This document shows positions 28,075 through 30,175 of a stretch of DNA of 36,013 nucleotides, one piece after another (position 1 is the stretch's first letter; the number at the start of each line of letters is the position of its first letter). The position numbers were made by a program, and so were the translations under genes. The notes under the pieces were generated by a model, which was not told the DNA's origin, did not search any database, and was given only the letters and a program-made list of their open reading frames with translations. This DNA comes from a virus: IMG/VR virus record IMGVR_UViG_3300046003_003170, positions 1 through 36,013 of that record; one strand, given 5' to 3'.

Positions 28075-29031
28075 ATGGCGCAGCCAACCAACACCCTGGA
28101 CAGCTACGACGTTCGTGGCATCCGCGAAGACCTTCAGGATATCATTTATGATATTTCGCCGGAGGAAACGCCCTTTTACACCAAGAGCGCGAAGGCCAAG
28201 GCGACCAACACGCTGCACGAGTGGCAGACCGACGCCCTGCGTTCGTCCGCTGACAACGCGCACATCGAAGGCGGCGACACCGCCCCGGAAGCGCGTGCAG
28301 TCACGACCCGCCTGGGCAACTACAGCCAGATCTTCAAGAACGCCGTTGCCATCCCCGGCACGGACGATGGCCTGAACAAAGCCGGTCGCGCACGCGAGAT
28401 GGCCTACCAGGTTCTGAAGATCGCCAAAGAACAGAAGCTGGACATCGAGAAAGCCCTGTTCGCGAACCAAGCCCGTTCGGCTGGTTCTTCGGTTGCACCG
28501 CGCCGTCTGGCTGGTGTGCCCGCCTGGCTGACCACGAACACCAACTTCCAATCCGGCAACGGCGGCGCTGACCCGACCGGCGACGGCACGAACGCCCGCA
28601 CCGACGACGGCACCCCGACTGCCTTCGACCAGACCAAATTCGACAGCGTTATGCAGGCGATTTGGCTTTCGGGCGGCAAGCCGGACACTGTTTATCTGTC
28701 GTCTTTTCAGATGAACAAGGCCCTGACCTTCACCGGCAACAACAACCAGCGGTCGAATATTACCGCTGAGTCCGAGAAGGTCATCAAGCACATGTCCGTC
28801 TATGTGACGCCGTGGGGCACCGTGGAATTCATGCCGACGCGTGAAAACCGCAGCCGCGACGTGTTCGTGATGCAGGACGATATGTGGGGAATCGGCGTTC
28901 TGCGCGCGACCCGCAATACCGAACTTGCGAAGACGGGCGACAGCGAAAAGCGCCAGATCATCACCGAACTGACTCTCATTTGTAAGAATGAGAAAAGCAG
29001 CGGGGCGGCTTACGACAATACTACGTCGTGA
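28075..29031 (+). CDS. Major capsid protein (DUF5309 / SU10-like)
   Basis: A 318-residue capsid protein. The N-terminus (TLDSYDVRGIREDLQDIIYDISPEETPFYTKSAK) and the following TLHEWQTDALRSSADNAHIEG match the SU10-type/DUF5309 coat family. Later parts (KIAKEQKLDIEKALFANQARSAGSS, LICKNEKSSGAAYDN) agree. It would form the HK97-fold shell. A good GGAG site is present. It has no long N-terminal delta domain, fitting a separate scaffold upstream. A short gap with an HNH gene follows. Confidence 0.93.
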   Translation: MAQPTNTLDSYDVRGIREDLQDIIYDISPEETPFYTKSAKAKATNTLHEWQTDALRSSADNAHIEGGDTAPEARAVTTRLGNYSQIFKNAVAIPGTDDGLNKAGRAREMAYQVLKIAKEQKLDIEKALFANQARSAGSSVAPRRLAGVPAWLTTNTNFQSGNGGADPTGDGTNARTDDGTPTAFDQTKFDSVMQAIWLSGGKPDTVYLSSFQMNKALTFTGNNNQRSNITAESEKVIKHMSVYVTPWGTVEFMPTRENRSRDVFVMQDDMWGIGVLRATRNTELAKTGDSEKRQIITELTLICKNEKSSGAAYDNTTS

Positions 29032-29063
29032 CCCTGACGGGTTTTCGTTGTTGATGGCGTGAA

Positions 29064-29104
29064 ATAGTGTATCCTTTCAGCAATCAGTTGGAGGGATACA
29101 CTAT
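29064..29104 (+). promoter_or_regulatory. Translation-blocking hairpin over the HNH start
   Basis: Bases 29064-29081 pair with 29087-29104, giving 18 consecutive pairs with a five-base loop (AATCA). The lower eleven (ATAGTGTATCC/GGATACACTAT) are perfect. The upper seven include three G-U pairs. The 3' arm contains the full ribosome site GGAGGG (29090-29095 region) and the A and U of the start codon at 29103. RNA reading in from the capsid gene would therefore hide the HNH start. A transcript starting inside the 5' arm, or melting by another factor, would expose it. I see no clear promoter there. Confidence 0.85.
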
Positions 29105-29702
29105 GAGCCTAGAAGAACGGTTTTGGTCTAAGGTTAAGGTTCAAGACGGATGTTGGGCTTGGACTGGTGGGAAGACGCAAGGGTACGGCAGTCTATCGCT
29201 TGGTCCTCGCGGTGCAGGTCGTATAAGGGCGCATAGGCTTTCTTATATCCTGCATAAAGGAGAAATCCCTGCTGGGATGCTCGTCTTGCACCAGTGCGAT
29301 AACCCTGAATGCACGAACCCAGATCATCTAATGATCGGGGATTATGCGGAAAACATGCGTCATGTTTCTGAGCGGAAAAGGAACCCGCAAAGCCAAAAGA
29401 CACATTGCCTCCATGGGCATGAGTTCACGCCAGAAAACACTAAGCTTCGAGGTCCAAACGGCACGCGAGAATGTAGGCAGTGCAAAAACGAAAACCAAAA
29501 GAAACGTCATCGCGAAACGCGCGGCGAAAATTTTGGCAAACCGCACTGGATACCTAAAACGCGCTGCCCATCGGGGCACGAGTTCACCCCCGAAAACACT
29601 TACTTGAACCCCAAGGGGTACAGGGAATGCAAGCTCTGCCGCAAAGCCCGAGTGCAAGAATGGACGGAACGGCAGAAATCAAGTAATCTGGGTAAAGCAT
29701 AG
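29103..29702 (+). CDS. HNH endonuclease with two C-terminal zinc-finger-like repeats
   Basis: A 199-residue free-standing HNH enzyme inserted between capsid and decoration genes. The core is RAHRLSYILHKGEIPAGMLVLHQC, then NPECTNPDHL: His63, Cys65, Cys70, Asn72 and His75 in the HNH/metal pattern. After it come two similar Cys/His modules of the form CxxGHEFTPENT...RECxxC (about 99-126 and 150-176), probably DNA-binding fingers. The start ATG 29103 has GGAGGG eight bases away but lies in an 18-pair hairpin. It is probably a homing endonuclease that targets phages lacking it at this junction. Confidence 0.88.
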   Translation: MSLEERFWSKVKVQDGCWAWTGGKTQGYGSLSLGPRGAGRIRAHRLSYILHKGEIPAGMLVLHQCDNPECTNPDHLMIGDYAENMRHVSERKRNPQSQKTHCLHGHEFTPENTKLRGPNGTRECRQCKNENQKKRHRETRGENFGKPHWIPKTRCPSGHEFTPENTYLNPKGYRECKLCRKARVQEWTERQKSSNLGKA

Positions 29703-29734
29703 CGCGCCTGGACAACCTCATAGGAGCAAACCCA

Positions 29735-30175
29735 ATGGCTTCCGAATACAAACCTAACCTTGGCGTGATTGCGATCACTGCCGCCACCACGCTTGATGAT
29801 GACGCCTACGCTGGGCGCACCATCAACCTGAACTCCGCAACCGGCCGGATCGTTACTCTGCCGGCCGCCACGGGTTCGGGCGCCACCTACACGATCTTCG
29901 TGGGCACCACCGTGTCCTCGGGCTCGCACGTCATTCGTGTGGCTTCGGCCTCCGACGTGATCCAGGGCGCTGTGTCGATCTCGACCGACATTGCAGGCGT
30001 GACGTGCCCGACCGCTGCCGACAGCGACACCATCACCATGAGCGGCTCCACCACCGGTGGCGTGCGCGGGTCGATGGTCGAACTGCAGGACGTGGCTTCC
30101 GGCATCTGGATGGTTCGCGGCTCGCTGGTTTCGACCGGCGCCGAAGCAACGCCGTTCTCGGCCGCGGTGTCCTGA
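29735..30175 (+). CDS. Putative capsid decoration / head structural protein
   Basis: A 146-residue, Thr/Ala/Gly/Val-rich beta protein (GRTINLNSATGRIVTLPAATGSGATYTIFVGTTV, ending WMVRGSLVSTGAEATPFSAAVS). It has a GGAG site and follows the capsid gene, separated only by the HNH gene. Composition and place fit a head decoration or head fibre protein. I cannot name a family. A stable hairpin follows its stop. Confidence 0.62.
   Translation: MASEYKPNLGVIAITAATTLDDDAYAGRTINLNSATGRIVTLPAATGSGATYTIFVGTTVSSGSHVIRVASASDVIQGAVSISTDIAGVTCPTAADSDTITMSGSTTGGVRGSMVELQDVASGIWMVRGSLVSTGAEATPFSAAVS

Follow-up and report, generated by a model that had tools for sequence, protein, structure and literature searches.

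An HNH endonuclease gene that lies directly behind the major capsid protein (MCP) gene of a virus starts within an 18-bp RNA hairpin, and this leader very probably silences the gene on RNA reading through from the capsid gene, with shorter RNA that begins inside the hairpin escaping the block. On the same explanation, which we hold with this degree of confidence only as a whole, the gene would encode a homing endonuclease of the free-standing HNH kind that has settled in the structural operon, between the capsid gene and its downstream neighbour. The arrangement was found in a stretch of 36,013 nt, referred to here in its entirety as the window, and a survey of related loci points to what is probably a rule: HNH genes behind SU10- and P22-like MCPs have repeatedly gained a hairpin gated by the RNA start site, with a host-type promoter in its 5′ arm. 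The features of the region, in window coordinates, are as follows.

28075–29031, plus strand: major capsid protein gene, SU10-type MCP (PF17236, E 4e-82; phrog_1328, E 3e-84)
29032–29721, plus strand: inserted HNH cassette (leader, gene and short tail), delimited by empty sites in close relatives
29048–29053, plus strand: candidate −35 box TTGTTG, weak (score 4.5, shuffle p 0.06)
29064–29081, plus strand: 5′ arm of the hairpin, from pairing and fold
29070–29075, plus strand: candidate −10 box TATCCT in the 5′ arm, 16 nt after the −35 box and unchanged in the nearest copy, L001
29082–29086, plus strand: 5-nt loop AATCA, from the fold
29087–29104, plus strand: 3′ arm of the hairpin, including the Shine–Dalgarno (SD) sequence and the AU of the start codon, from pairing and fold
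29090–29095, plus strand: SD sequence GGAGGG, wholly within the 3′ arm
29103–29702, plus strand: HNH_3 endonuclease gene, 199 aa (PF13392, E 2e-10; phrog_826, E 7e-54)
29735–30175, plus strand: next operon gene, which adjoins the MCP gene in relatives too, without a family match

The HNH_3 domain scored 40.5 bits against PF13392 (cut-off 24.8), and the protein has an HNH core that looks intact and two C-terminal Cys/His repeats. Farther upstream of the MCP gene are two more genes, one of scaffold type and one for an SU10-type portal protein. A preliminary description of this DNA had placed the HNH gene between capsid and decoration genes; the first two assignments hold, but the label 'decoration' is not established, the downstream gene having no match among protein family and phrog profiles. 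In close relatives (L007–L012, L088 and L091–L096) the site is empty, with 15 nt between the MCP stop codon and the next ATG and no hairpin, and because of these empty sites the HNH gene is counted as a discrete and, as the comparison indicates, recent insertion. Its first base immediately follows the MCP stop and its last immediately precedes the SD of the next gene, its right edge being fixed by AGGAGCAAACCCAATGG, which is common to the window and L008; the protein of the next gene in L008 is 100% identical to that of the window. In two related loci (L021:4078-4312 and L103:1005-1375) the MCP gene is itself interrupted near codon 30 by group I introns (RF00028, 84 and 59 bits), and the insert in L103 also holds an ORF of 259 aa in which an HNH-like motif is present. 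In this phage group, mobile elements thus have a hotspot in the capsid gene.

The hairpin stem consists of 18 unbroken pairs (15 Watson–Crick, 3 G-U) with an 11-bp perfect lower stem, and the AUG of the HNH gene occupies 29103–29105, so that its AU is paired in the 3′ arm. Both the pairing of the two arms and the cover of GGAGGG and the AU by the 3′ arm had been described beforehand, and all coordinates proved correct. Folding of 29040–29130, the interval proposed for this check, gave −37.3 kcal/mol (z −6.35), and none of 200 shuffles was equally stable. The hairpin is the longest in the window (25 dinucleotide shuffles of the entire sequence gave 11–16 pairs), and among its long near-perfect inverted repeats it is the only one that is not a simple palindrome. 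Rfam covariance models had no match in 28800–29800 at E values up to 1, and assignment to a known RNA family was rejected on this ground. An exact-pattern search of viral contigs for further copies returned only the contig of L001, and a distant DNA search of the phage collection returned MCP matches only.

For read-through RNA from the capsid gene, the calculated cost of opening the SD (29091–29096) is 15.6 kcal/mol. The cost depends on where the RNA starts, being 12.2 kcal/mol from 29070, 2.1 from 29076 and 0.3 from 29082, and since it is so small in the last case, an RNA starting at the loop should have an open ribosome site. The predicted fold places the SD and the AU of the start codon in a stable hairpin on upstream-initiated RNA. 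As proposed here, read-through capsid RNA would fold the leader into the 18-bp hairpin and conceal the ribosome site and start codon, and, judging from sequence and folding, hardly any endonuclease would be made from it. RNA whose first base lies within the hairpin, from about 29076 onward, would retain too little of the 5′ arm to fold and could be translated; in HNH genes neighbouring capsid genes this short RNA probably comes from a host-type promoter whose −10 box touches or lies within the 5′ arm. Production of a nuclease that cuts phage DNA would thereby be separated from the most abundant structural message, while it could still be made from its own start. That repression takes place, where the RNA starts and when the gene is expressed are the parts of this explanation that we infer.

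The nearest copy, L001, carries the same HNH (88% identical) behind a leader with four stem changes, in which all 18 pairs are kept. The changes are one-sided, three A-U or U-A pairs having become G-U and one U-G having become C-G, so that L001 has 5 G-U pairs against 3 in the window, and 13 Watson–Crick pairs against 15; because of the three new G-U pairs, the changes retain RNA pairing and not DNA symmetry. Four pair-preserving changes out of four have a chance probability of about 0.12, and taken alone the retention is weak evidence. The compensatory changes for which the preliminary description had looked to related phages were found only in part: no pair differs on both sides between the window and L001, but two sub-groups of the survey described below show changes on both sides in 3 and 2 pairs. 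In L001 the 5′ arm opens with an in-frame ATG (MVYPSGSQLEGYAMSLEERFW..., at L001:1518); its counterpart in the window is ATAGTG, with an in-frame GTG at 29067, and no obvious SD precedes either codon. In L087 the slot is occupied by a different HNH (38% identical), whose SD lies in a 16-bp hairpin of unrelated sequence (z −4.8) with promoter-like boxes TTGACA-16-TAGTCT. The next full-length relative of the window HNH, L116 (46%), also lies behind an SU10 MCP gene and has a third, unrelated hairpin. The earlier reading had been made to depend on pairing being present in homologous HNH genes at this site, and the leaders of both L001 and L087 are paired. Its central proposal, I-TevI-like masking that keeps the gene silent on capsid read-through mRNA, thus draws support, as a prediction, from the insertion, the pairing in L001, the hairpin of L087 and the positional association.

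That association emerged from a survey in which HNH genes were collected by protein similarity and not by the presence of a hairpin, mostly from uncultivated phage contigs, with genes called by a simple ORF rule. One fixed criterion decided whether a leader counted as hairpinned: a stem with 8 or more pairs across the SD zone, z < −2.5 and an opening cost > 8 kcal/mol. Such hairpins were present at 37 of 168 HNH starts and at 12 of 750 other genes on the same contigs; hairpin genes had served to build one of the survey queries, A5, and fractions from the A5 scan are not population rates. A scan not seeded with hairpin genes gave 13/77 HNHs versus 2/228 controls (p 5e-7). Two extra HNH samples, seeded mainly with members lacking a hairpin, gave 3/128 versus 15/613 controls, and on these counts the hairpin was rejected as a general property of phage HNH genes. 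It was seen in about 2–3% of HNHs not behind an MCP gene and in none of 15 HNH relatives in bacterial genomes.

What accounted for the pattern was the upstream neighbour. Directly upstream of 33 hairpin HNHs were 19 SU10-type and 7 P22-type major head protein genes, compared with 2 and 1, respectively, for 98 hairpin-less HNHs. When all collected loci were scored for the gene directly behind an SU10- or P22-type MCP gene, with HNHs made non-redundant, the fixed criterion (its z-scores here being from simple letter shuffles) found an SD hairpin in 34 of 37 HNH genes and 1 of 55 other genes (p 1e-20), and the median opening cost was 18.9 and 3.1 kcal/mol, respectively. The three misses were hairpinned on inspection (37/37), the start having been picked too far downstream in L380 and the stems being interrupted in L120 and L420. 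The class of HNHs with N-terminal Cys/His motifs carried the hairpin in 29 of 42 cases; a count by position gave 27/29 behind an MCP gene and 2/14 elsewhere, and the corresponding figures for other HNHs were 5/6 and 4/228. A tree of 252 HNHs requires the hairpin label to change at least 17 times, and well-supported branches make at least 5 of these changes unavoidable; the HNHs of the window and L087 lie on separate branches. From the class-by-position counts and the label changes, position predicts the hairpin better than lineage does, and the idea that it is a property of one HNH lineage (that with N-terminal Cys/His motifs) was rejected for this reason. Several independent origins of the hairpin are likely.

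The same leaders carry candidate promoters. These were scored with an approximate E. coli matrix, from which the preferences of the host may differ. Among hairpin HNHs, sigma70-like boxes are concentrated where their −10 box falls within the 5′ arm or at its foot. In 19 of 26 capsid-neighbour leaders (6.4 expected, p 3e-7) the RNA start predicted from the best promoter lies in the arm or loop, and 13 of 28 leaders score above 5, against a mean of 1.7 and a maximum of 7 in 300 shuffles. Good examples are L277 (TTGAAA-17-TATAAT), L134 (TTGATG-17-TATAAT) and L216 (TTGACA-17-TAAGAT). In the window the boxes listed above predict a start at 29082, the first base of the loop; a strict scan of the region for 9 of 12 consensus positions had no match, and promoter-driven escape is plausible for the window itself. 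A T4-type late promoter (TATAAATA) is absent from 29032–29104 and, for that reason, the window leader, though it would work like the late-regulated leaders of T4, is not one of them.

It could be argued that the hairpin is instead a terminator, or a stabiliser of the 3′ end of the capsid mRNA, and that it covers the HNH ribosome site only by coincidence. Other relatives do have terminator-like hairpins behind the MCP gene (L013, L014 and L031), and at least four T follow the hairpin in L116, L124, L143, L182, L210, L215, L218 and L223, where a dual role is possible. In the window, the combination of GC-rich stem and T run expected of an intrinsic terminator was not found: no T run follows 29104, the sequence continuing into ATGAGCC, and the hairpin is not among the terminator-like sites of a scan. 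A run of four T follows only 4 of the 28 non-redundant hairpins, and in close relatives that lack the HNH, no hairpin follows the MCP gene. The single covered SD among 55 non-HNH genes behind an MCP gene led to rejection of a capsid 3′-end terminator as the main role, and we consider this explanation unlikely. Less likely still is that the inverted repeat acts as DNA, being an operator for the HNH protein or another regulator. The repeat overlaps the candidate −10 box, and I-TevI autorepresses through an operator at its own promoter (PMC2988022), but the leader is no more similar to the insertion site than shuffled sequence is (p 0.08–1), the changes in L001 spoil the symmetry of the DNA while keeping the RNA paired, and the 3′ arm consistently ends at the SD or start codon in hairpins that are unrelated. 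The operator reading was rejected on the first of these points, the leader being unlike the homing site. That the SD merely pairs by chance with upstream sequence, for which the limited covariation between the window and L001 alone could be cited, is scarcely credible against the fold statistics, the rank of the hairpin in the window and the contrast between HNH and control genes behind MCP genes.

Masking of the ribosome site as proposed for the window has precedents. In I-TevI, I-TevII and I-TevIII of T4, transcripts from upstream promoters fold a stable hairpin over the SD, and a promoter near the gene gives RNA too short to fold; such genes are intron-encoded, specify GIY-YIG or HNH proteins, use T4 middle or late promoters and are silent early and expressed late (PMC2988022). 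The window shares with these the predicted masking of an endonuclease SD on upstream-started RNA and, like I-TevI, the capsid-neighbour class has its best sigma70-like promoter usually starting RNA in the 5′ arm or loop. Its gene, in contrast, is free-standing, lies behind a capsid gene and belongs to a non-T4 phage, and the promoter-like boxes in the arm of this class are of the host sigma70 type instead of the T4 middle or late type. The timing may also be the mirror image of that of I-TevI, with silence on the late capsid message and not on the early one. The genes mobE of Aeromonas phage Aeh1 and segB of T4 encode free-standing endonucleases and have a hairpin-masked ribosome site; they are located in T4-like phages at ribonucleotide reductase or tRNA genes (cited in PMC2988022 and PMC3014915), and no capsid link is reported for them there. 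The T4 genes e (lysozyme) and soc also have an SD or start that is masked on long read-through RNA and freed on RNA from a nearby promoter (PMC3014915), but these are ordinary phage genes and the window gene is a mobile element.

The masking principle is therefore already known from T4-like phages (I-TevI, mobE and segB). The present cases differ in phage groups, in the HNH_3 family, in the position in the capsid operon, in the host-type boxes in the arm and in their rule-like recurrence. What appears to be new is the rule for capsid neighbours, the setting outside T4-like phages and the repeated origin. No description of a capsid link for such leaders was found in a literature search that covered mostly open papers, which is weak evidence. 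Such masking of homing endonucleases had been described for only a few genes, all of T4-like phages; in the present survey it appears to accompany HNHs behind capsid genes almost universally, across unrelated capsid lineages and several HNH branches. If the rule is true, the same DNA would yield two messages, a long one that is silent and a short one that can be translated, and a selfish nuclease could persist in the operon that a virus expresses most highly and yet not be overproduced. It would also supply dozens of natural hairpin and promoter pairs for testing start-site-gated translation, and would predict which annotated phage HNH genes stay silent on late mRNA.

Annotated phage genomes provide two comparisons. 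In MW202691, a podovirus from Manatee Spring, the P22 coat protein gene is followed by an endonuclease gene with a strong SD hairpin that contains TATAAT. Sulfitobacter phage phiGT1 has an HNH gene (gp9) behind an HK97-like capsid gene, but there a terminator-like hairpin is favoured and the alternative SD pairing is less stable (−19.6 versus −28.5 kcal/mol), so that the case is ambiguous and some capsid lineages may fall outside the rule. The two hairpins of gp9 (L450:1259-1313) are mutually exclusive, the SD one being formed by GACGGTAATCC/GGATACCGTC, and the arrangement resembles an attenuator. A second phiGT1 HNH, of the Cys/His class and not behind a capsid gene, is without a hairpin.

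Some variants of these leaders were also observed. In the eight loci listed above with T residues after the hairpin, the T run lies between the 3′ arm and the ATG, and both terminator and mask are possible. The more distant L013, L014, L022, L028, L031, L032 and L056, which have no HNH, show a GC-rich, terminator-like hairpin after the MCP gene that leaves the SD uncovered. A group of near-identical HNHs (L238, L242, L261, L262 and L285) has an inverted repeat directly 5′ of the SD; in L261 this is TTGTGTCTGTCATTCC...GGACTGACGGACACAAGGAG, and the gene upstream is a Mom-type DNA modification gene.
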